Assembly (NCBI GenBank): GCA_015178975.1
Contig: WHVD01000086.1
Span: 62,001 to 126,000, forward strand
Source of the DNA: Hysterangium stoloniferum
Taxonomy: Eukaryota > Basidiomycota > Agaricomycetes > Hysterangiales > Hysterangiaceae
DNA: 64,000 nucleotides
Direction: 5' to 3'
The position numbers were made by a program, and so were the translations under genes. Below the pieces are notes generated by a model. The model saw nothing but the letters and a program-made list of their open reading frames with translations, did no database searches and had not been told where the DNA came from. Positions 9,935-64,000 of the stretch are shown one piece after another. The stretch's first letter is position 1; the number at the start of each line of letters is the position of its first letter.

Positions 9935-11172
9935 TTAAGGGAATAAACCACCGACAATGCTCTCTTTCAACCACTTATCATCACCTCCGTGAGCCCTTGT
10001 AATGTACTCAATCCCTTCCTTCATCATCTCACGCTGTTTCTCTTCTCCCTTCTTCCAGCTGGGTATTTGAGGCGTCAATACAACCATGTGCGTGCCTGCA
10101 CGGCTCGCAGCAAGCCGGGCAACCTCCACTAAATTAAGTCCGCTCCCGCTCTCTAAAACCGTCTCGCGATAGGCAGCGGTGAAAGAGGAGATGATAGCAG
10201 TTACTGAGTTTTTTGAGGCGGGGTAAAAAAAACGCATCTGATGAAGCTCTGCAAAACATTGTCCGATATCAAGCCCGGCCAATCCAGGCCTTGCGATCTC
10301 CCAGTCAATGATATTTACGTGTACTCCTGCGTCAGAAGAAACGAGGATGTTGCCCGGCCATAAATCCCCCATTACGAGGACCTCGTTGCTTTCGATGATT
10401 CGCTTTCGCATTACCTCTGAGATCTCGTTGATTTGTTGCACTTGTGCAGCGTCTATAATAGGAGTTACAAGGGCTTCAAGTTGAGAACCTGGCGTCGGCG
10501 ATAGTGTACGAACGAGCCATCCATACGAAACCAGTGCAGATATCGTACGAGCCTGGGGATTTCTAGAAAATTCTCCTTTGAGGATAATTCCAGGAGCATC
10601 CAAGGAGTTTTTCGCGTCATGTGTGGCTACATGCATCTCTGCAAGGAACTTCCCCAACGCTCGTCCGAGAGTATGGGAGATTTCAACGCTTGGGGGTGAT
10701 TTAAGAAGAAGATCTTTGAGATTCAAAGAATTTATGCCGGCATCTGACATTATAATGACTCTATTGACTCGATCTTCGTCAAAGATGGTTGGGAGTGAAA
10801 TGATAGGGGACGGAGATGTGATTTCAGGGATACGTCGACAGGCAAGTGTCTCATATTCCTGGTGAAATAAAAAAATATGCATTAGCGGACCTTGAAGCAT
10901 TAATAGCAAAAGTAAAAACCAACCTGTCTTTCAACCTGGAGAGGAAAACTCTTGTTGGTGGCCACATATGATTCTGCGTGTTTCACAATCATGGTACGGA
11001 TGTGGCTTCCATTATGAACATATGGCTCCTGTAGGACAATCCGGTATGTGAAGTTCGCGGTCCCTCCCCCGAGTGATGTTACCGTAGAGGCAACGAATGG
11101 GGTTGAAGAAAGAAAGCCTTTGAGACCTTCTTCAGTTGTGAGATCGTATAGGGGTGGTGATTGTGTGGTCAT
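9935..11172 (-). CDS. APH-fold phosphotransferase (kinase-like) protein, copy 1
   Basis: Two exons, 11172-10924 and 10858-9935, joined by a 65-nt GT-AG intron, give 390 residues. The glycine-rich nucleotide loop GGGTANFTYR lies near residue 35. The catalytic loop GDLWPGNILV and the metal-binding IIDWE segment lie in the second exon, as in the APH family (PF01636). The substrate cannot be told from sequence: fungal members of this group are usually annotated only as kinase-like proteins, and aminoglycoside resistance should not be assumed. The ATG at 11172 is the first methionine codon in frame. A near-identical second copy lies at 16,030-17,267. All key residues are present, so this is probably the functional copy. 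Confidence 0.8.
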
Positions 11173-16029: not shown

Positions 16030-17267
16030 TTAAGGGAATAAACCACCGACAATGCTCTCTTTCAACCACTTATCATCACCTCCATGAGCCCTTGTAATGT
16101 ACTCAATCCCTTCCTTCATCATCTCACGCTGTTTCTCTTCTCCCTTCTTCCAGCTGGGTATTTGAGGCGTCAATACAACCATGTGCGTGCCTGCACGGCT
16201 CGCAGCAAACCGGGCAACCTCCACTAAATTAAGTCCGCTCCCGCTCTCTAAAACCGTCTCGCGATAGGCAGCGGTGAAAGAGGAGATGATAGCAGTTACT
16301 GAGTTTTTTGAGGCGGGGTAAAAAAAACGCATCTGATGAAGCTCTGCAAAACAGTGTCCGATATCAAGCCCGGCCAATCCAGGCTTTGCGAGCTCCCAGT
16401 CAATGATATTTACGTGTACCCCTGCGTCAGAAGAAACGAGGATGTTGCCCGACCATAAGTCCCCCATTGAGAGGACGTCGTTGCTTTCGATGATTCGCTT
16501 TCGCATTACCTCTGAGATCTCGTTGATTTGTTGAACTTGTGCAGCGTCTATAATAGGAGTTACAAGGGCTTCAAGTTGAGAACCTGGCGTCGGCGATAGT
16601 GTACGAACGAGCCATCCATACGAAACCAGTGCAGATATCGTACGAGCCTGGGGATTTCTAGAAAATTCTCCTTTGAGGATAACTCCAGGAGCATCCAAGG
16701 AGTTTTTCGCGTCATGTGTGGCTACATGCATCTCTGCAAGGAATTTCCCTAACGCTCGTCCGAGAGTATGGGAGATTTCAACGCTTGGGGGTGATTTAAG
16801 AAGAAGATCTTTGAGATTCAAAGAATTTATGCCGGCATCTGACATTATAATGACTCTATTGACTCGATCTTCGTAAAAGATGGTTGGGAGTGAAATGATA
16901 GGGGACGGAGATGTGATTTCAGGGATACGTCGACAGGCAAGTGTCTCATATTCCTGGTGAAATAAAAAAATATACATTAGCGGACCTTGAAGCATTAATA
17001 GCAAAAGTAAAAACCAACCTGTCTTTCAACCTGGAGAGGAAAACTCTTGTTGGTGGCCACATATGATTCTGCGTGTTTCACAATCATGGTACGGATGTGG
17101 CTTCCATTATGAACATATGGCTCCTGGAGGACAATCCGGTATGTGAAGTTCGCGGTCCCTCCCCTGAGTGATGTTACCGTAGAGGCAACGAATGGTGTTG
17201 AAGAAAGAAAGCCTTTGAGACCTTCTTCAGTTGTGAGATCGTATCGGGGTGGTCATTGTGTGGTCAT
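16030..17267 (-). pseudogene. APH-fold phosphotransferase, copy 2 with early stop
   Basis: Same two-exon layout as copy 1 (17267-17019 and 16953-16030). The second exon is fully open and keeps GDLWSGNILV and IIDWE. In exon 1 the fifth codon is TGA at 17,255-17,253 where copy 1 has TCA (Ser), and the glycine loop reads SLRGGTANF instead of SLGGGTANF. The next in-frame ATG lies beyond the loop, so translation from it would lack the nucleotide-binding glycine loop. Otherwise there are no frameshifts, so inactivation looks recent. Confidence 0.75.
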
Positions 17268-51104: not shown

Positions 51105-52719
51105 TATCAAGTCCTAGGGTGTCCTTGGGAAATTGGCCCTAAAGGGAGGGTACTGTTAGGACTGGGAAACCCACCAGGCCCAGGTTTCCACCCTATAAGC
51201 ACTTATCTCTCTGTTTTACAGAATGATCTATCAACCAGACTCCAACCAGATATCCCAGACCTCTTAGAAGCTTGAAGATCTTTTCCCAATCCATTCCTAA
51301 GCCTCTTTGACATCTAGTTTATTATGCATCCTGTGTTTGTCCCTATTCCATCTTGGCCCTTGTTCTTAGTATGGTTGTAATGTATTTAGGGGTTTCTCTC
51401 AGATAGCTCAATATATGCTATAGTGTTACAGAGCTTCAACAATAAAATAAGCAAAGGTCCAGTAATTTAAATACTGAGAGATTAATAAGCTGCGCTATTA
51501 AGCTTAAACAACTAAAATCAATGCTTATTTTGATTATTGAAAGGTTCAAAAGAACAATATGTAACTCTTTTAGCAAATAAACAACTATTCCTTGAGAATA
51601 GGGGCTAGAAGCTGAGTATATGTGCAGTAACTTAGCGGAAACTTTATATAAAGCTTCGGCTTCTTGTATGGCTATTTGTAACTATTAATAGATATTTAAC
51701 CAGGTGTTAAATAATTTATTAATAGAGAAGGTAATTTGGTTTGGATTTCCTGTGTACTTGTACTTGATTAATTCACTAACTTAGGGATGGGCCTTGAATA
51801 ATCTAGTATTGGCAGGGATTTCAGTAAGGATACTTTATTGAAGGTTTACTATGTATTTAGTAAGCCTAAGGGTAGCTGTGAGGCTGGGGGAAACTTAGAT
51901 GATTAGCTAAGTTCAAGAGTTGCTGACAAAGAATTCAAGTGTAGGTGCTTGCAGTTAGTGTATCAGACTAAGGCTATTATTGTGATCAGATAAGCTTCTG
52001 AGCTGTGCTGCAAAATATGTGTGTGATAAGATGATTTATTTTGAAATTTAGCCTACCTTATATACATTTTGATAACTAAATTATTTAACTATTTATTTGT
52101 GTTATGATATCATTAATTAGTCAATAATGATATCATGTCTAACAATTTATTACCCTATTTCTCTCATATGACTCCCAAGTCTGAGACAAGGGTTGCACTC
52201 TAAGCCTGAACTCCAAAGTTTAGAGGCCAAGATCCGGGACGGAAGCAATTGCTGAGTCAGCGGATGACTTGAGTATGTCGTTACAGTCACATTCGTGACT
52301 GTATGATATCCCGGAGGATGTCACATGACTCCAAAAATGCACACATAGGAGCAAGCAATGTGCCAAAAAGCAATAACTAAGTAAATAAAATATAACTAAT
52401 TAGTTAAAAATTATAATAAATTAACTAAGATATAATAGCATTATATGAGCTCATATATGCTATTATTATGCAAAGTTAAAAGGAACTAGGCCTTATATTT
52501 CAATAATAAATATAATAAAAATACAACAAATTCGAAAAAATTTTAAATAATTCAAAGAAAATTAAGAGAACCTTATGAGATAATGCTGATACCTCACAAT
52601 GGTTAACCCTGCCTTGCTTCTTATTCACCTATTTTGTCTTTTTATCCTGCCAGATTAGTAGTACAATAATCTCTAGTTCTAAATTATCTAGCAACTGTTT
52701 GCACTTACAATTTGATCAG
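51105..52719. other. AT-rich non-coding region, possibly a large LTR
   Basis: No coding frame. A TGTTACAGAGCTTCAACA string near 51,424 could be an LTR start, and 52,225-52,330 is a local CpG-containing patch with GTCACATGACT, but I found no matching end or target duplication. Confidence 0.35.
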
Positions 52720-53003
52720 CAAATCAACTTAGCACCAATTTAGTATTTTACCTACCTGTCCTAGTAACTTTGTACCAGTGTATTTCTGGAACCTGTGGGT
52801 CCCCCAACTGAGACATGAGATTTTCACTTGAATAACTCTGTGTATTCTCAGACTCTTCAGGTTCCCTTGTCCTCCCATCTGAAATTGGACTTGACAATCA
52901 TGTGAGAGTGCAGCATATAACCTGAAGTCAAGTGATACATACCTGTCCCCAGAACATCTGCAGGTTTCCCCTGGATACCCACCTGTGAGTCCCAAGCTTA
53001 ACA
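52720..53003 (-). mobile_element. LTR-like fragment
   Basis: Minus strand begins TGTTAAGCTTGGGACTCACA at 53,003 and contains the shared core in variant form (ACTTGACTTCAGGTTATATG). The other end is not identifiable. A further decayed member of the LTR superfamily of this window. Confidence 0.5.
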
Positions 53004-54689
53004 CTTGCACAAAACTCTCAGATTCTCCAATACTTCAAAACAAGCAAGAAAGTATGTAGCATGATATATAATGGTACTTAGTTATAAACTGGGGATCCAG
53101 AGACAATGGTTGCAAATGTAGCAAGTCTCAGTCTGGCCAGACACTACAAAAGGTTTAAGCAGCAATACTTTAAAACAAATGAAGGTATTATTGCATAAGC
53201 TTCTACAAATGAGAGGGGGATTCTAATTGGGTATTCTGAATCAATATTCAAACTGAAGGGTATTAGTGTACAAGATGAGGTTTGGTACTGAAGTAAATGG
53301 AAGCAAGGAAGGCTGAAATGGAGATTTGATATTAACAGAACAAATGAAATTGGTAAAATGGACCAGGATATCAAGAAAGAAATACAAGACAACAGACAAA
53401 AAATAAATGCTCTGAGGTGGCAAATGATGTGGTGAAGTGATACAAGGAATAATGGAATGCCATTGGAAGGAAATGGGATGGAGTGGCTATAAAATGAAGC
53501 CATTAAGTGGGTGTTGTCAGTACACTGTCATCAGAGATACTGCTATCAGGAACATCAATGTCAGGATGCCAGAGGACAATATAGGTTGAAACCACATAGG
53601 AGTCTGAATGACATGGTTCCTATCAAGAAGGTTATAAATCAATATTTGAACTGGAGGGTTAGTAGAATTTAAGCCAATAATTTATACTAAAAGATTCAAT
53701 GACAGATGGATGAGTAGAATGGATGGGACATGGGGTACGAATTTGAATGAGAATAAATGGGGAGCTGGAATGTGCAGACCTCAATATGACATGGTCATGA
53801 AAGGCAATACAAATTTTATGTGATCAAGTATTGAGGCACTGCCAACAAAGATATGTATTACAATCAGGAGGACCAATGTCAGGACGCTGGATGAATAATG
53901 ATTGTGGAAGGATGTTTGGAGTGCCTGAAATAATACCTGTCATAGTGGAGCAAGGGTGTGGTTGATACAAATGTGTCACAGAGTACTTTGAGTGAAGATC
54001 ATAGAGCTGGCATTCATCCCTTGAATAACAACTATTCTAACTCTAAAAACACTTGTGATTTAAATTGTATTGTCAGCAGTGTCTAGGTTGGCTCAGGTAA
54101 TATAATTATCATTAAGTTAGAGGTCAAGCACTGAAATTGTCAGATTGGCATCTGCACACTCCTGTCTTCTCACATGTACAGTCTTATGTTGATGCTTCAA
54201 GAGGAAAAAATTGGGGAAGAATGAAAATACTATTCCAAGACAGATGCAACTGCTGATGTAGTGTTTAACAACATTAGTATTGACCTGTAAGTATTCAGGC
54301 CCAATTGCAAAGTGAGACTGACTCATGTATGTACTATATGTTATGGACAATTATTTCAAAAGTAGCCTATAATATGGGCAATATTTCACATAACCTCTTC
54401 AAGTGAATTGTCTTGCTCAATACCTTGGAAATGATTTTTATCATATGTAATCCATGGTTACCCATGACATATGTGTTGACTGTTTTCCAGTCTTTGCATC
54501 TGTCTGATTCTGCTCTTACCTTGAAATGAACAAATGTTGCTCACCTCTGATTCCAAACAGCTTCCTTCCACTGACTAAATTGCTCCATCATACCACAGAA
54601 TACTGTGTTTGGGAGGGGGGAGACCAAAAACCATGCAAGAATTGAAAGGTTGGAAGTGAGTCTTTGATGCCAAAAACAAGCTGGCCATA
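53004..54689. other. CpG-poor repeat-derived DNA
   Basis: Pieces resemble 26,160-26,370 and 23,655-23,800. No protein family is recognisable in any frame. Probably overlapping decayed LTRs. Confidence 0.4.
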
Positions 54690-55013
54690 TCTGCATTTGA
54701 ATGCAAAGTCACAGTTTAATTTCTTGGTACTGATGGTCTCATCATGAATTCCTCTCTCCCAGGCCTATATAATGCTACTGTTTTGGTGGGGTGATGATAT
54801 ATTAACCACAAGCAACACTACAAATGTTTCCACCACATGTAACATTATCCACAAAATTCTTCCACTTTCCTGGCAAGAACCACCTGCTCTTCTTCCCCAC
54901 CCTCCCTTTTCTAGCCTTCATTGTACTCAGTCTGGGGAAACATTAATTTTTGTACTTATGATTCATTCTATATGCATATGTGCTTACTACAACAGTCATA
55001 ATGAGGCCCAGTA
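54690..55013 (-). pseudogene. Secreted cysteine-rich peptide relic, block 3
   Basis: Matches the 3' part of blocks 1, 2 and 4 (GTCTCATCATGAATTCC, GGTGATGATATATTAACC), then the terminal intron: acceptor CCAG before ACTGAGTAC and donor GTAAGCACATATGC near 54,990. CpGs are mutated. A MITE family 2 copy cuts it at 55,014, so signal peptide and start are missing. Confidence 0.65.
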
Positions 55014-55189
55014 AGGAGGATGGTCACACTTTATTGAATATACAAAATTTTACTGAATAATCCTCATATTTTTTAAGTGAGACTATTTCTTCTGGCCATG
55101 ACAACTTATTCTATGAGTTTATATTTAATTACCTGAAATTTCATCTTTAAAATATGCACAAATAACATAGTTACACAAGATTATTTGGG
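55014..55189 (-). mobile_element. MITE family 2, truncated reversed copy
   Basis: Reads GGAGGATGGTCACAC from the left and follows the right end of the copy at 46,279-46,867 in reverse up to TTATTTGGGTT, where the A3 LTR and then gag sequence follow. Confidence 0.7.
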
Positions 55190-55194
55190 TTAAC

Positions 55195-55869
55195 TGTTAC
55201 GACCGGAATTCCCACTGGACTCTGGGCATTAACTTATACACACCCACACCCTATACACACCAATTGTCAATTTACCAGAATTCCCACTGGACTCTGTACG
55301 TCATACTTGTCCACATTCAACTTCATTATGTCGTGTATCAGTCACCGGAATTCCTGCCAGACTCCATCCCTGTCTATGTCTGACCTCATCCCACATGTCA
55401 GTCACTGGACCCTGCTCAGAAAACCTGCCATCCCTCTAACAGAGCCCCATTCCCATTTTAGTCAAATGACCTGTCACGATTCGGACTCCACTCCCACTCC
55501 ATTTCCCATTATGGTTTATAATTTGTCACAATTAGGACTCCACTCCATTCCATCATTCCCCCCTTTAATCTAATACATTTTCCACTCTAAACTCCTCTTT
55601 GAATTACACCACTCATGCTAGTCGGAGGCCATGGGCTCCGACGCATCTATCTCTCTTATTTATCTCAACTCCTGACCTCTCAACCCACGACCTCTGACCT
55701 ATGACCCCTTGACCCACGAACCTTGCCTGGACTCCCCGGGATTCCCATCTGCCTGTCTGAAATTGGACAATATGATCTCGTGAGGGTGCAGCCTATAAGC
55801 TGAAGCCAAGTCCTACCGGATATCCCATGGGTTTCTCTGGAAACCTGCCATGTATGTACCCTAACAACA
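55195..55869 (-). mobile_element. Family A solo LTR (A3), probable TSD TTAAC
   Basis: A 675-bp minus-strand LTR from TGTTGTTAGGGTACATAC to TTCCGGTCGTAACA. TTAAC lies on both sides (55,190-55,194 and 55,870-55,874). It lacks about 170 bp present in A1 and A2 and keeps more CpGs. The first bases are ambiguous (TGTTGTTAGG or TGTTAGG), so the duplication is likely but not certain. Confidence 0.72.
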
Positions 55870-56525
55870 TTAACGAGTTTGCATGGGGTGAGTGGTTGTT
55901 TTGTGATACATGCTGCGGCATTTATTGATGAGAACAGTGGTCTGTAGGATTCGGGTAATGATCCCATTACTATTGCGTAAAAATCCTTATCCTCAATATT
56001 TGCTCCCATGCCTGCTAATAATTCACGAATTTGAAATAGATTTCCGAAATGTACCTTTACATCACCTCCTTCATTGCATCTGGTTTCTTGTAGCCTTCGA
56101 CACAGATCTATTTGTACCAGTTCAGTTTTGCCCTCATGTATGGTACATATCTCTGTCCATATCTTTGAGGCATTGTCCAGTCCTTGGACACGCAACAATA
56201 GCCGATCCGAAATTGTGCTAAACATATGTTGTTTGACGAGTGAGTCCTTCTGATAAAACTCGTCAGTTTTCTTTTCAAGTCTTCTATCTCGCGCAGCGTA
56301 GGTATTGATCCATCAGGATTGATCATTTTTCCCGATGAGTCGATTTCAAATTGGGTTGGTTCCTTCATACGTCCATCAAGATAACGCATCAAACCTCGTG
56401 CGCGTATCACCGTTTTTGCCCCTTTCCTTATAGGTTATCCAGTTCGAGCCATCTTCGGGAAGCTGGGGGATGTTATATAACGATGTCGTACCAGAGAGTG
56501 TCGTATCCATGTTCGTAGGTTCCAT
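55870..56525 (-). pseudogene. Copia-type LTR retrotransposon gag, frameshifted
   Basis: The minus-strand frame opens with ATG at 56,525 (MEPTNMDTTLSGTTSLYNIP), then LPEDGSNWITYKER. A one-base shift follows near 56,412, and it continues as VIRARGLMRYLDGRMKEPTQ, later IHEGKTELVQIDLCRRLQ, VKVHFGNLFQIRELLAGMGA and DKDFYAIVMGSLPESYRPL, the UBN2-like gag of fungal copia elements. No protease, integrase or reverse transcriptase follows; the frame runs into A3. Another frameshift lies near 56,230. CpG content is normal, so decay is recent. Confidence 0.82.
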
Positions 56526-56959
56526 AACCTATTGTAGTTTATATTTGAGTGAGTGAGAACTAGAAAGATAATAATATCTCGGTTTTTCGGACTCATTTAT
56601 TCGTCTGTTGTTTTCTATCCTATATACTATGTACCGGTAATGGTACATTGCCGGTTCCATACTGATTCCTAATCTTTTACTAATGCTATGTTTTATTCTC
56701 TATTATAACTGTGCTCGGACTTATTCTGCGTCCGATTTCCGACCTCAAACTCCGACAATCTCAACAACTGCAACTTTACACACCCGTCACCTGTCCTGCC
56801 ACTAAGGAGTGATAGTACACACCGTACACGGAAAGACCTCACACACGTGCTGATCTTTTGAAATGCCGCACGCGGGGATATGGGCTTTCCCGTCGATTTC
56901 TCACAGATAAACTTGCTTTTCCCCATTTGAGCGGGGGATGGCAGGTAGAGGAAGAGACT
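56526..56959. other. Probable 5' leader and LTR remnant of the copia element
   Basis: Upstream of gag on the minus strand. An ATAGGTTATGGAACC string overlapping the gag start could be a primer binding site, which would put the LTR end at about 56,534. It shows no similarity to family A, so the gag does not belong to the A3 LTR beside it. Confidence 0.35.
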
Positions 56960-57674
56960 ATATCGAAGTCGTCTCCTTACATAAGGTCAGGTTCAGTTAC
57001 AGAGAAAAGTGCCATGCGACTTCTCTTTCTTGACTAGGCACATAATTGGAATCGCCTGGTACATTCAAATGCTTCAACCAGATACTGGATGCTGAGAATA
57101 TTATACCTCGGGTACCCTTCACCTTGATGATGATATTCTTCCGACTAGCTTGCTCAAAGGTTTTCACTTTTCGACAGGCCACAGTGTACCGGTCATCCAC
57201 CTTGAACGGTATCCATAGCTATATGCACCCAACACTGCAGCCGATAACACATGGATATTTGAAGACAAACCAGAAAAGTGACCCATCTGTTGCCAACCTG
57301 GCGGCCACTGTCCCTCTGTGCGTCCATGGCTACTCCGATATTGTTAGCAGATATTCATTTCCCATAACAAAAGGCACGGAATGGGTCGTGCGAGGCCTAC
57401 AAGTTTGCGGAACGTTTTTTGAATTTAAAGGGGGATGCGATGCATCTCTGTATTGATTGGGTCCATGTGGATCTTGGTCTTCCGTCTCATCATGAATTCC
57501 ACTCGCCTCATGTGACGCTACCGTTTTGGCAAGGTGGTGGTATATTTAACAACAAAGTAACGCTCCAAACACGTTTGCCACATATAACACTACTCCACAG
57601 AATTGTTCCACTTTCCCCAAGGAGAACCGCCTGCTCTCCTTCTCCCACATTCCCCTGTCTAATCTTCATCGTAC

Positions 57675-57904
57675 TTAATCTGTGGAGACGTTACGTTTTG
57701 GACTAGTGATTCATTATATATGGATATACACTTACTGCAACAGTCGCAACGAGTCCCAAACCAGCAAATTTGTTGTTTTTCGCCACATTTTTTATGACAC
57801 GGCACCTTACGGGGATTGCTTTCGTCGTCTGCAATTGCCGTAACAGTGCCCTGTGTAGCAATGAAGGCAATGGCCAGGATAATGAGGGCTTTAAACGATT
57901 GCAT
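57675..57904 (-). CDS. Small secreted six-cysteine peptide, block 4
   Basis: Start ATG at 57,904. Signal peptide MQSFKALIILAIAFIATQGT plus VTA, then IADDESNPRKVPCHKKC and ICWFGTRCDCC: the same C-x3-C-x6-C-x5-C-x-C-C spacing as block 2. A 56-nt intron (57,735-57,680; GTAAG to CACAG) follows the last cysteine codon. Splicing gives 57 residues ending CCN, stop at 57,677-57,675. Without splicing the frame runs to 57,659 (81 residues, extra cysteine, NVT glycosylation site). A longer upstream frame exists to 58,045, but the TATA-like GGATAAAAGG and the signal peptide favour 57,904. Secreted; function unknown. Confidence 0.78.
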
Positions 57905-57959
57905 TGAAAGAGAAGACTGCGTCGATTTGTAGTTGAGGGCTTGATCGTGCATCTGTTCG

Positions 57960-57969
57960 CCTTTTATCC
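57960..57969 (-). promoter_or_regulatory. TATA-like element of the block 4 peptide gene
   Basis: GGATAAAAGG on the minus strand about 60 bp before the start codon, at the same place as TATAAAAGG in block 2. Confidence 0.5.
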
Positions 57970-58446
57970 GTTGGCTAGGATATGAATAACGGCAGCACCT
58001 CCATATAATGTTGAAGAAATTCATACTCCCGGTAGTTCCGGCCATCTTGGAAATCCCGCATCATGCTGTTCAAGTGCATAGCTGTATCGCTGCTGCAATT
58101 GACTAATCTCCTGTATTGTTTTTTTTTTCTCCTTATTACTATCTCAGATAATGGTGATGGATTTTGAAAAAATTATCCCGTGAGTCTGGCGTCTAGCGGC
58201 TGCCTTCCATGGGACACAATACCAACTGAAATATATTGGTGTTACATGTTTAGTTATTGATTTCTCTCTCCTATGACAATGTATCATAGTAGACTTCCAG
58301 AGGACTATGTCTCCAAGTACTCTACGCGGAGTTATATGAAACTTGAAAGATTTTATTGTTTCCAAACCAGACCATCGTTTTTTGAAATAGATATAATATT
58401 TTAACGATAAAGTGTATATTGATTTAGTTACATAAGAATATTGCAC

Positions 58447-58556
58447 TACATCAGTAAAAATAGTTTTAAGCGATAGAAAGTGTCATCCGGGACCTTCCTG
58501 TGATGGAGGACCTTGCTCCGGGAGTCGTCCAGATCAAAAAACAATTTACTGATGTA
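58447..58556. mobile_element. CAGTAAA-type MITE, block 4
   Basis: A 110-bp segment with perfect inverted ends TACATCAGTAAA and TTTACTGATGTA, orthologous in position to 38,405-38,548. Confidence 0.65.
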
Positions 58557-59332
58557 CCACAGGTGAGTTTCAGAAGTGAGTTTCAGGTGAGTATAAATCC
58601 CAAATGATCGGGGCGCCTGATTACATATACCCATGTCTTGGCAGAGTAAGTCACCGATCAATGGGGTTTTATTTGAAAACTCATGTGGGCTTCCAAGATA
58701 TCCCTCCGTTGTTTTTTTTCTAAGATATTGACTATCTCCTGTACACGGTCAAATCCTTCCCCACCCTACCCGGTCCTGGTTGTTTTGATCCCTAAACACC
58801 TCCCTAAGAATTGTCGACCCGTTGGGATAGTGTACTCGTTGAGAGTTAATGTCGAGCCTAGTTTCCAATCAACCGGCCTTGTTTATCATTTTTGATCCCT
58901 TAAAGAATCGACTATGAATTACACTAGTATTTGTGAAGCATTTCATCATAAACTAATGGATGATGCAAGTACTACTTTGTTTTCATAAATTAATCGTCTT
59001 TTTTTCCACATTATTATTTGTCACATCAACGTCTTTTTTTTCTTCTTTCATTTACTTTAGGCATTTTTAGGCGTTTTCGCCGGTGCCTTTCTGTGAATTA
59101 CACGAGCGGAGAACACTTTACATAATAGACGCTGCGAAAATCTGGGATCGATGCTTATTTCCCATTAAGTAAAATAAGCCTCTGAACGGAACAGAAGACC
59201 AAGGTATTGACAACTTTTTTTTTACTTATTTTTTATTCATACTGTAAGCTTGATTCGCCGTACCCCTGGCCAACTTGGAGAATGATTTTTGATCCACCAT
59301 CGTCTTGCTGTATGGACATCGACAAATCCGAT

Positions 59333-59352
59333 CCAGCAAGGAAACTTGCTGG
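59333..59352 (+). other. Hairpin with GNRA tetraloop
   Basis: CCAGCAAG-GAAA-CTTGCTGG: a perfect 8-bp stem closed by a GAAA loop, about 150 bp before the hammerhead-like sequence. Confidence 0.7.
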
Positions 59353-59500
59353 CCTCGGTACTCGCTCCCAACCGTATACTACCCACCACTGGGTCACCAA
59401 GATTCTCAGAGTTCGATGCACGCGTAGGTCGGCACGAATCAATTATCTTATCACTCCCTTTGGACCAGGCTCAGTAGTAGACTCCTAATCAGTAATTCTG

Positions 59501-59575
59501 GATGGGCGAAACGGTCGGGGTAGCAGTATCCCCCTGATGAGAGCTCTCGTCGGCTCGAAACCGTTACTATCCCGT
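59501..59575 (+). ncRNA. Type III hammerhead ribozyme candidate
   Basis: Self-cleaving RNA motif. Core, all as required: cleavage triplet GUC at 59,514-59,516, CUGAUGA at 59,534-59,540, GAAA at 59,557-59,560. Stem III is AACGG (59,510-59,514) with CCGTT (59,561-59,565), extended after an internal loop by ATGGG (59,502-59,506) with CCCGT (59,571-59,575). Stem I is GGGG (59,517-59,520) with CCCC (59,530-59,533), closed by a 9-nt loop. Stem II is GAGC (59,541-59,544) with GCTC (59,553-59,556), closed by an 8-nt loop. The open stem is III, hence type III, the form used by viroids, satellite RNAs and plant retrozymes. Predicted cleavage is after C59,516. Activity is an inference; the fit is direct observation. 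Confidence 0.82.
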
Positions 59576-59683
59576 TTCCCCTAGCCACCCTCTACACTAG
59601 CTGACAAAGTTCTATCTTCGGAGACAACTGTTTGCGGCGAGTGATAAGGTGGTGGTCCGCCCAGCGGCGCTCTGGTGGACGCT

Positions 59684-59710
59684 GGTGACCATTGCGTTGT
59701 CATGGTCACC
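59684..59710 (+). other. Strong hairpin downstream of the hammerhead
   Basis: GGTGACCAT and ATGGTCACC form a perfect 9-bp stem around a 9-nt loop. A CTTCGG tetraloop motif lies between this and the hammerhead, near 59,617. Confidence 0.65.
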
Positions 59711-60170
59711 TGGCTAATTTCATGATTTTAACGTCGCTAACAATCTGGGTGCCTCAGGCTTGCTCATACCCACGGCCCACGATCTACGACCTACTCTCAA
59801 TCAAGTATTACAATTTCTTATTATGTCTCCCAACCCGGAGAGTCATACTTTGTCTTTCAATAGCCTCATAATAGGAGCATTTACTTGACTTACTGATATT
59901 CCCCTGAAGCAGAATCGTGATATTGTTGATTTGCCGCACCTCCGAAGCCTGGAAGACTTATTTATTTTATGATGGAATAATGGCGGGGCTTCCGCACTGT
60001 TGGGTAGGTCCCGTCGGGAATTTTAGGTCTGTACGAACCCGGAACTACCGGAGGTTACCTTAAACAACCTCTTTCATTCGGCAAAACACAAATCCGAGGA
60101 GTAATTGAAGCCTTTTCGGTAGAGCAAAATTTACCATGGTGTTTTGGCCACTTGGCAAGGAGTGAATCTT

Positions 60171-61079
60171 AATCAGTGTACTGGTGTATTAATTTGACTC
60201 GTTTCAATACCAATTAATATTGGTTAGTTATGGAAATTAGTTACTTATTCCCGCGAAAGTGACACATGAAATCGTAAGCTGAGTAAAAGCACCCAACTCA
60301 AGTTTTGTTATTTCCAAGACTGTGAGTGACACTCATTGTCATTTTCATGTTTATATTCACTGCCACTCGCTCCTTGATTTATGTTCTCGTCCGGACCGCT
60401 CATCGACGCACTTCTTACATCGGGGATATTAAGATAAGAAAGGTTCAAGGTTTTGGATGCTATCTGTATTGCACAATCACAACCATTTCTGTTTGATTCT
60501 GTACTGCACTTTGAATTTACGCCCCCAAGTCAGCTGTTACATGCTCCGAATACGAAAGAAGACATATTCTGCACCCGTGTATCCTTGATCGATAAAAAGG
60601 AAGTTAATGGTTTTTTGCAATATGCCGTCAGGGAATTTGACGATACTACTTTGTTTCAAATCTTGAACAGCCGGAGTTGTAAGGCTGTGGTATCAGCCTC
60701 ACTCGGTCGGTAACAGACAGGACAAAAGTATTGTGTTGTGAGTGATTTTTCTACTACAAAACAGATGTGACGTCTAACTAATATATATAAAATAGAGAAC
60801 CCTCAAGTATTCGCGACAAGGGGAATTCCGGACAAGCAGGACCGAGAGTCTAGATCGTGGTAGGGAAGGGGAAGGAAAGAGAAAAGAAAAAGGGTTCGAA
60901 TCTTTATTGAGTCTGATCTCGGGTTGGGCTTGATCAGGGGAACTCGGGTTGGGCTCGATCAGGGGAACCATAGGAGTGCGGTCAGTGACCAGGGGTCAGG
61001 ATGCGGCTCTGTATGTGTGGTAAGGCGGCCAGGATTACAGGAGTATACCCATAGGCGTCTAACATGCAGCCATCTTATC
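60171..61079. other. Intergenic, repeat-bearing
   Basis: 60,180-60,470 matches 45,740-46,020. A frame at 60,453-60,713 (86 codons) is open but has no recognisable family. TGGTATCAGCCTCACTC near 60,686 recurs at 30,194. No gene called. Confidence 0.4.
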
Positions 61080-62120
61080 TGTCGAACCATGGCTCATTTT
61101 GACACAGCAGGTCATCTGACAACCTCTCACCCTCTCACCTCCACCCCATAGTCTGTTACTGCTCAAGCCTCCACCCTCGGTATCACCGCTCACCCATCCA
61201 CAGGCTGATGGGAGCCTCCTGGAGGTCTGTCATGGAGAAACTATCGATCACACTCCCTGCCTTAAATGGGTCCCTCCCGGTTGCCACAATTTTTTCAAGC
61301 TCGAAAGTACTTCCACACTATCCATATAGCTTATGGGTGTTCACGGACGGTTCAGGGCATGATGATCGTGCTGGTGCAGTGGCAGTGGAGACAAACATGG
61401 ACTGACAATACGAAGGTTATCTTTGGGTGAGCCCCACCATTACACCACCTTTGAAGCCGAGATAGCCACAACCATACTGGAACTGGACATCATCAGGGCA
61501 GCCCCACGTATTCGCAAGACCACCATTCTTTATCAGTAAAATGGCGTTCAGCGCTAGAACCTACTCCAGGCTGTTCCAGCCCTCCACAACGTCCAGACGT
61601 CTCCAGGCACTTCCTGGAGCTTCCTAGAAGAGGGGGGGATCTCCTCGGGGAGCGGTCCGGGTCAAAATCCACTTTACTAATGTTCTCAACAACCAGGCTG
61701 CTTGGCCGCCGCACAACTTCAGCTGGACGAGCACCTTATTTGGCTGTTTCATTCCTAATCAAGTGCTAACTAGGCATAGGGATACTCTTACCATACGTAT
61801 GGTGTGGGGTCTCTGATCACACAGAGGTGGCAATGAACGAGCAGGCTGACACCCAAACTATGTGTATCATTACTGACAGCTCCACCTCTGTCATCTGCGC
61901 GATCATAAGCCCTACAGAAACTTCCTACGTCACATCACAGTGCCGAAGGCGCAGCATCCCAGGAGTGGAGCACCTCCAGCCGGGCTTGCAAGCTCCTGAA
62001 ATTCGACAAGCCCCCTCAAGTGCAAGAGTGCTTTATCTGAGTCTTCAGAGAAACGTCGCCCGGTTTCAAATGCTCGCAGCATCTCTTGCAAATATTATTC
62101 TCTTGCTGCTCTCACTACTT
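61080..62120 (+). pseudogene. LINE RNase H relic, interrupted by a MITE
   Basis: Plus-strand pieces in order: WVFTDGSGHDDRAGAVAVE (61,340-61,397), HHYTTFEAEIATTILELDII (61,440-61,500), TTIL then the MITE then NNQAAW, TLTIRMVW near 61,780, and HTEVAMNEQADT near 61,812-61,848. These are the TDGS, AEI, NQAA and NEQAD landmarks of a retrotransposon RNase H. Frameshifts and stops separate them. The reverse transcriptase part is not recognisable upstream. Confidence 0.68.
61530..61682. mobile_element. CAGTAAA-type MITE, copy in RNase H, TSD TTCT
   Basis: A 153-bp element, TTATCAGTAAAATGG to CCACTTTACTAATG, with TTCT at 61,526-61,529 and 61,683-61,686. Removing it and one TTCT gives ACCACCATTCTCAACAACC, restoring T-T-I-L-N-N in frame. 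It shares CCACAACGTCCAG with 38,470-38,490. Confidence 0.72.
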
Positions 62121-63437
62121 TAGTCACTCCTCTTGTTTTTATAGTATTTTTAAATAAATATTCATTTAAAAATAAATGCGAAATATTCAAATATAATTTT
62201 GATCCGCCAAGCTGTTATTTGATTCTATGAAGCGGCACGCCGGTACAAATAGTAATGTGCTAACACGATATTATCAAATGTAATGCTTTGGACATCCGGA
62301 CATCGGTTTCCCGGTCAGGGTGTGTTCAATGACTGTGCTCCGAAAACATATCAACACATGTTCTCCATTCAGTTCATTCTTGTACCTGACTTTTAAATTA
62401 ACTGTGTGTCCCCACTCATGACAGCATCATGTTATCCATTTCACTTACTCTGCCACATCACTTGTCATCTAGCAGAGGATATCCAAAGTGTTTTTACAAC
62501 TGTCACAAGACCAGTCCTGACCAATTTCCCAGCAACTTCTTGTTAGAGTGTGATATTACAGCTCTCACATAGTATATGATGTTCCCTATATTTTTCTGAT
62601 ATTTGTAGTATTTTTCCCAGCACTGTAGGTGCAGTATTGAGTGAGTTACCTAGTAAGGTAACTGATGTATAGGTGCTTAGGTAAGCACCCTGTAGCATAC
62701 TCCGCTGTGGGTGTGGGAAAGTCTCCTTAGTGTTTACTTTCCTCACACTCACAGGGTGTTTGTTAAGAGTTATTCAACTGTTTCAACACTTCTCAACTCT
62801 TTGACTCAACTATCTTTTGTCATTTTTTGACTTAACCTTCAACTTGTCTCAGATTGACATCATTTGTTATTTCATACATGATCTCATTCTTAAGTCACAT
62901 AATGGTCATGGTCCTTAATTGATATTCAAAGGCATAAAAGGGCAATGAACAGAGTGAGGGAGGCCAGTCAGAAAATCTGTACCATAGTCCATTTCTTATT
63001 CAGTGTGTTACTAATAATCATCTATTTCCTACTCATTGTTGGAACCCTTTGAGATTACATGTGACATATCTATTCATGAGCTCCTTATGTCCTAGTTAGC
63101 CTGTCACTTCATCTGCAGGATGAATGAATACTTTGTTGAAAGAGGCATTCTGTATTCAACATAGTTGAAGAAATTCAATCTGTGTATTTTCTGACTACTA
63201 CTTTTGATGAAACCTTGGGCACAATCTGAGTCTGTCAAAGAGTCAAGTACTATGGCACTTCAATCTGTGGCCCATATTCCTACATTGAGAGCTGCTAGAC
63301 CATCAAGAATTCCAGTGCCCCCATTAACTAAAATACAAAGAACTATGATAATGACTAGTTCTCAAGTGGCATCACCAATTCATGAATTAATACAGATTAC
63401 AGAAGAGCATATAAAGTCACAAAAATCCCCAACTCTA
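62121..63437. other. CpG-poor non-coding region
   Basis: From about 62,400 CpG drops again. A frame at 63,204-63,446 is truncated by the MITE at 63,438 and has no recognisable family. Probably old transposon DNA. Confidence 0.4.
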
Positions 63438-63593
63438 GGAGGATAACTAAAAGTTATTTATCCACTCAAGTATATATATTTATATTGTTTGCTGTAGAAT
63501 TAACATTTCATCAAATTCAATCCATCAGGTGACATTCTGGAGAATGGGGAAATTTTAATATTTATCTTGCAATCTGATACAAGCTAGTCAAAG
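63438..63593 (+). mobile_element. MITE family 2, cut by a family 1 MITE
   Basis: Starts GGAGGATAACTAAAAG after TA at 63,436-63,437 and follows the 46,279 copy to TAGTCAA, where family 1 copy d begins. Confidence 0.72.
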
Positions 63594-64000
63594 GAGGATA
63601 TCTGAAAACTATTAAGTATACCAAATTCTAATATACTCTAAAGGTCATTTAAACATCTGGGATGTGATTCAAACATAATTTGGTTTTTAAAACTTTTTGA
63701 AAGTTTTAAACTCTCTCATACTTTACAAACTAAAGAATCTTTCTGGACATGAGTAGACAATACAAAAAATTAGTAGTTCGAAACACTAATACTTTTAAAA
63801 AATAGATACCTTTAGATAGTCTATTCCATGCATATGTGTATCATTGGCACCTCTAAATACATATGTATTACTTTGGAATGGATCTGTCAATCTGAACAGA
63901 TTTCTACTTGATTCAACATATCCAGAATATATAGGTGATTTCACCCAACTAAGAAAGCCACAGGACAAAAAAAATTCCAATGACATCTCACATATTCTAC
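63592..64000 (-). mobile_element. MITE family 1, copy d (runs off the window)
   Basis: Reverse-oriented copy starting AGGAGGATATCTGAAAAC and matching copies a-c to the window end. The flank is AA rather than TA on this side; the other end lies outside the window. Confidence 0.75.

Follow-up and report, generated by a model that had tools for sequence, protein, structure and literature searches.

The hammerhead ribozyme motif at 59510-59565 (+) of the window analysed here, a stretch of 64,000 nucleotides from Hysterangium stoloniferum, is in our judgement probably a constant internal component of a short, non-autonomous DNA transposon of the rolling-circle type, similar to Helitron2 and HINE elements. 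The copies of this element have discrete ends, are cleanly inserted, carry a putative asymmetric inverted repeat and a 3' hairpin, and kept the ribozyme core during the divergence of the subfamilies; rolling-circle movement is what we infer. Hammerheads in genomes are tied to retroelements and satellites, where an RNA stage can account for the cut, and we know of no RNA intermediate of a DNA rolling-circle transposon. Retention of a hammerhead through several amplification waves would imply that self-cleavage is put to a new use here, or else that there is an RNA stage nobody has suspected. The question is testable from RNA-Seq data, given about 100 copies whose subfamilies carry GUC or GUA.

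The letters at 59510-59565 agree with the GUC, CUGAUGA and GAAA elements and the stems which a first-pass annotation had described, and U-H, CUGAUGA, GAA and the A15.1-U16.1 pair are all present in order, as in a type III hammerhead. On the forward strand, stem III is formed by 59510-59515 with 59560-59565 (6 bp including A15.1-U16.1), stem I by 59517-59520 with 59530-59533 (two further pairs lie inside) and stem II, as read from the sequence, by 59541-59544 with 59553-59556; all three helices adjoin the core, and it is stem III that is open. The CUGAUGA (59534-59540) and GAAA (59557-59560) core segments are supported by the sequence and by an alignment of 73 copies. The cleavage triplet is GUC at 59514-59516, replaced by GUA in older subfamilies and by GUU in a few copies, and the cut is predicted after this NUH triplet, between C59516 and G59517. 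A search for the core pattern CTGATGAGN{4,30}CGAAAC found it once in the window and in none of 100 shuffles, and the 5' end of the surrounding element also matches only once with up to three mismatches; in these two respects the claim that the window holds no second copy is borne out.

Comparison with the Rfam covariance models, proposed as a check by the same annotation, gave a divided answer. The Hammerhead_3 model (RF00008) matched at 59509-59566 (+) with 32.0 bits and a significant E-value of 1.1e-4 (cmscan of 59001-60100; the value holds for 1.1 kb and the 4227 families are already counted in), but the score is below the curated cut-off of 48.5 bits, which is a cut-off of the Rfam library and not of the chemistry. 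Across the whole window no family reached its gathering cut-off, so that the refuting outcome named by the annotation, no hit above threshold, formally applies to the curated cut-off. A hand rescaling to one family and the 111-Mb genome puts the E-value for RF00008 at about 3e-3, and a chance origin of the motif is therefore unlikely. RF00008 matches were obtained in 12 of 20 loci examined, with 24-34 bits (best 33.8), the other eight having no match at E <= 1, and every score in the window and these loci was below the curated cut-off. A genome-wide RF00008 search, in which 68 of 19387 candidates were scored, yielded none and missed known copies, and is thus uninformative.

The motif sits in the middle of a 425-bp repeat at 59293-59717 (+), which we regard as a subfamily A copy of a non-autonomous Helitron-like element and whose borders are common to copies with unrelated flanks. 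The expectation that the hammerhead marks a mobile element is right, and the search for further genome copies gave about 100 of them. With 301 bases around the motif as query, 40 of 183 candidate places were scored, all 40 at 95-100% identity. Comparison of the first 20 loci showed sharp borders at 59293 and 59717 and flanks that are unrelated apart from L001/L002 and one group of host repeats. Genome-wide, the 5' end TCCACCATCGTCTTGCTGTATGG was matched 47 times and the pattern of the 3' end 56 times, with no match for either reversed control; exact matches to the first 12 bases of the element number 109, versus 9 for the reversed control in 111 Mb. From these counts, about 100 copies can be taken as a reasonable minimum. 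The exact element patterns had 0 matches in viral contigs and 0 in prokaryote genomes. The host had been taken for a fungus from the letters, in line with 19 matches to Pfam Fungal_trans in the genome, presumably a fungal domain; the 14 control genomes without this domain may all be non-fungal.

For the comparison of copies 86 were aligned, of which 13 duplicates with shared flanks were dropped to give 73; the split copies L064 and L085/L093 as well as L108 and L134-L139 were never in this set. The 5' start is TCCACC in 61 of the 73 non-duplicate copies and TCTACC in 4, and the 3' end is CTAA in 34, CTAT in 34 and CTAG in one. The 5' terminus TCCACCA... (59293-59318, +) and the inverted TGGTGGA (59673-59679, +), located 38 bp from the 3' end, form the two arms of a putative asymmetric terminal inverted repeat; 7 bp are perfect and about 25 nt imperfect. 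The duplex of both arms has -28.0 kcal/mol, which 2 of 1000 shuffles equalled, and in 4 rows alignment pair 3-445 has U-A in place of C-G, both arms being changed. Near the 5' end, a short hairpin (CCAGCAAG GAAA CTTGCTGG, 59333-59352, +) includes one A-U pair, mostly G-C elsewhere (alignment pair 47-54: GC in 41 rows, AU in 3, A-U in the window copy). The 3' terminal hairpin, GGTGACCAT and ATGGTCACC separated by 9 nt (59684-59710, +), has a 9-bp stem in which, by eye, one pair is changed on both sides between subfamilies A and B. It stops 7 bp before the 3' end, and the remaining TGGCTAA (59711-59717, +) is the 3' terminus according to the end comparison among copies.

The subfamilies have diverged up to about 20%; C and D, found with L086 and L110 as queries, measure about 460-490 bp and show 79-91% identity to these queries. 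In subfamilies A and B, 33 copies carry 272 substitutions in total. The C>T and G>A changes account for 104 of them, and 85 of these 104 are at CpG, which suggests methylation or RIP-like mutation. The window copy belongs to a duplication in inverted orientation that spans at least 2.6 kb within one contig (L001 and L002, contig C540) with 95.9% identity overall; the 425-bp element is identical in both. Locus L121 has, about 480 bp upstream, an additional incomplete 5' terminus, with part of the left flank repeated and the hairpin there flipped, resembling the multiple 5' termini of FoHelis. L075 and L078 have 83 bp of left flank in common (98.8%) and different right flanks. Two candidates for longer or partner elements were rejected: L093 and L064 proved to be copies split by nested insertions that look LTR-like by eye, and L108 with L133 offers only a 5' end and no frame above 138 aa. 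Elsewhere in the window, a Copia-type gag fragment (Retrotran_gag_2, E 4.5e-23) is located at 55680-56312 (-), about 3 kb off the element, and near-identical 331-aa frames at 9935-10930 (-) and 16030-17025 (-) point to a local duplication; the former matches an APH-type phosphotransferase domain.

Target site duplications (TSDs) of at least 3 nt were found in 0 of 37 flank pairs, a few of them related to each other, which come from 47 of 50 collected copies (the three excluded have no 5' part); a 2-nt duplication was seen once with 2.3 expected. A paralogue without the element, L057, provides the empty site for the copy common to L015, L017, L019, L020 and L065. Its junction reads ...CATTCTCGAT directly followed by TCTCGCCAG..., with no gap, so that nothing but the element was gained and no target base was lost. 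For the flanks of the window copy, the corresponding test found no empty site. The first base of the right flank is T in 18 of the 37 pairs and the last base of the left flank is G in 16; no preference for A and T on either side of the insertion point, for TT or for T-rich targets appears among them. By eye, L018 and L014 are located within palindromes. The canonical Helitron signature (5' TC, 3' CTRR, insertion between A and T) does not describe the element, with CTAA or CTAG in 35 of 73 copies and CTAT in 34.

RepHel-type genes are present in the genome, since it contains 151 matches to Helitron_like_N, many of them in open frames of up to 1923 aa. No RepHel partner with the ends of the element (TCCACCA...GGTCACCTKGCTAW) was detected in 30 Rep loci with 1.5-kb flanks, and these ends are also absent from two 10-kb stretches around Rep matches. 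Within 15 kb of 150 Rep matches, there is no element end on the same strand and one on the opposite strand, as judged from 100 of 109 listed 5' 12-mers and 56 3' ends. A large family of Helitron_like_N frames, L021-L052, is about 84-99% alike in the pairs compared, and several members lie near contig ends; in L051 and L052, CATCCACCGCGC-type tandem repeats adjoin the frame. This family is possibly subtelomeric. The 425-bp element departs from Helitron2 in its short perfect arm, in targets that are neither T-rich nor of the A-T type and in CTRR ends in only 35 of 73 copies. Because the fit is good but incomplete, we name it Helitron-like and not a member of Helitron2.

The first-pass annotation had pointed to a retrozyme or another element producing circular RNA. 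In such a retroelement the hammerhead would cut the RNA and close it into a circle, reverse transcription and integration would follow, and the 425-bp copies would be solo units. Hammerheads of eukaryotic repeats have been described in retroelements, and the element would make a suitably compact RNA. Its 425-nt strand folds with -153.5 kcal/mol (z -3.56), and a common alifold structure of 46 rows, taken from 71 full-length copies by leaving out rows within 3% of one retained, is a rod in which the 5' end pairs with the 3' subterminal arm and the hammerhead region lies inside (z -6.5 against 60 column shuffles). Double changes occur in 18 of its 133 pairs, several of them explicable by CpG decay; 254 of 6005 cells are unpaired. 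This predicted rod fits a structured RNA or a structured single-stranded DNA. Stable structures are likewise formed by the RNAs of retrozyme repeats, and solo units are known from Jatropha, where most hammerheads outside dimers sit in solo LTRs (excerpts of PMC4918200). However, neither a repeat nor an LTR pair surrounds the element within 52000-64000, its 37 flank pairs lack a TSD of 3 nt or more whereas plant retrozymes have 4-bp TSDs (PMC4918200), the empty site in L057 is clean and the element ends are unrelated to the cleavage site. No tandem copies were seen and each unit has one ribozyme: no fetched locus contains two cores, the nearest two 5' ends are 2.3 kb apart among 100 of 109 listed candidate ends, and the extra terminus of L121 has no second ribozyme. 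As LTRs, 4-bp TSDs, tandem units and a second ribozyme are all missing, this origin is unlikely; neither a retrozyme nor another circular-RNA element is supported.

A Helitron-like element might also carry the hammerhead as a functionless captured passenger, conserved by common descent only, since Helitrons capture sequence. The core is complete in 62 of the 73 copies, which supports the type III motif of the first-pass annotation. Position 17 is C in 37, A in 30, T in 4 and a gap in 2, never G, so that the cleavage triplet varies only within NUH. At 12 core positions, counting neither position 17 nor gaps, deviations make up 8 of 873 cells versus 7.5% at positions matched for base and CpG, and 0 of 2000 draws were as low. 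In an earlier test, which used 53 copies and scored both position 17 and gaps as deviating, 17% of draws were as low and significance was not reached, nor was it for subfamily C alone (11%); the tests differ partly because C17 changes freely within C, A and T. Comparing the column majorities of subfamily A (14 copies) with those of subfamily D (13) gives 3 differences among the 61 ribozyme positions and 51 among the 364 others, and D has 63 more columns than A. Several other blocks of the element are equally conserved in the 73 copies. The ribozyme is therefore one of several constrained parts, and its conservation is not special. The equally conserved blocks and the outcome on 53 copies would suit a passenger; the rarity of core deviations, the change of position 17 to A or T only and the joint retention of CUGAUGA and GAAA argue against one, and we hold this reading to be equally unlikely.

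The 16 pairs of the hammerhead stems are formed in 98.1% of 1146 cells, and all 16 in 50 of 73 copies. In a hand-picked alignment of 26 of 54 distinct sequences, which omits several deletion copies, the paired share is 97.3% of 415 cells versus 37-53% for slid partners; 14 of 500 shuffles reached this value. Changes on both sides are seen at 2 of the 16 pairs, and 253 of 500 shuffles do as well. With so few double changes, covariation is little independent proof of the stems, though pairing is kept. In the minimum free energy (MFE) structure of the isolated 78 nt, a competing hairpin of CUGAUGAG and CUCGUCGG at 59534-59553 (+) pairs the core with loop II and would hide it, and the alifold structure again places the core there. 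The hammerhead fold lies 2.4-6.9 kcal/mol above the MFE in five copies, by energies without tertiary contacts. The competing hairpin probably slows or gates the cut.

For the Helitron-like transposon that we favour, a RepHel protein of another element would nick the DNA and peel off one strand, and a circle would form and re-insert. The element would be transcribed alone or by read-through from a neighbour, and its RNA would cut itself after C59516. Most likely, this would benefit the element in one of two ways: its RNA is freed from host transcripts that read through it, or multimers transcribed from the circular DNA intermediate are trimmed to unit length. The best reading of the sequences is that element transcripts self-cleave, perhaps slowly or conditionally. 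A two-stage parasite goes further: the transposition circle would be transcribed repeatedly and the multimer cut to 425-nt rods, maybe to viroid-like circles, and the hairpin that hides the core would act as the switch. We consider this extension quite improbable.

Least probable is that the motif is no ribozyme in practice and that the conserved hairpin of CUGAUGAG and CUCGUCGG, as DNA or RNA, happens to complete a hammerhead. In favour, this hairpin is part of the MFE structure of the isolated window RNA, and across the 73 copies 99.5% of its 580 cells are paired, 68 copies having the full set of 8 pairs, which is more than for the hammerhead stems. Against this reading, the hairpin leaves GAAA, NUH and stem III unexplained, shows no double change and reaches a covariation score equalled by 152 of 500 shuffles, transitions preserve its pairs by themselves, and it has a 3-nt gap in the L088-L092 group, which yet retained the hammerhead; in L092 the hairpin is weaker.

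The hammerheads of plant retrozymes are of type III, as in the element described here. Both are non-autonomous, non-coding and mobile and have a compact RNA fold, whereas our element is without LTR and TSD and has one ribozyme per unit (compared with excerpts of PMC4918200). Hammerhead-bearing interspersed repeats are reported from Yarrowia lipolytica and metazoa (PMC3088659, in part). By its description, the Yarrowia repeat is likewise fungal and multi-copy; the hammerheads of eukaryotic repeats are mostly type I in that account, in contrast to type III here. Penelope-like elements and Terminons also contain hammerheads within a mobile element; they, however, are retroelements (PMC6431247, in part). 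Among titles, openings of abstracts and passages of the open-licence literature, we found no description of a hammerhead within a Helitron, and in the available passages of PMC4918198 Helitrons appear only as an analogy. The pairing of a mobile rolling-circle-type DNA element with a hammerhead has apparently not been described in these sources.

The closest counterparts are the non-autonomous Helitron2/Helentron elements. The element studied here differs from HINE-type elements by its hammerhead, by its perfect arm of 7 bp against published values of 12-16 and by its lack of a T-rich target, and no autonomous partner of it was found near the Rep matches compared. According to the excerpts of PMC4067079, the inverted repeats of HINEs lie 38-60 bp and their palindrome 8-35 bp away from the 3' end, and the targets are unmodified. 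The inverted 3' arm at 38 bp falls within this range, and a palindrome likewise lies near the 3' end, although it stops 7 bp from the end. The fungal FoHelis have asymmetric inverted repeats and yielded joined-end amplicons, and no insertion preference could be set for FoHeli3-5 (PMC5148889, in part). Finally, like HINE, DINE-1 and FoHeliNA1 as portrayed in parts of PMC4067079 and PMC5148889, the element is short and non-coding, makes no TSD and leaves its empty sites unchanged.
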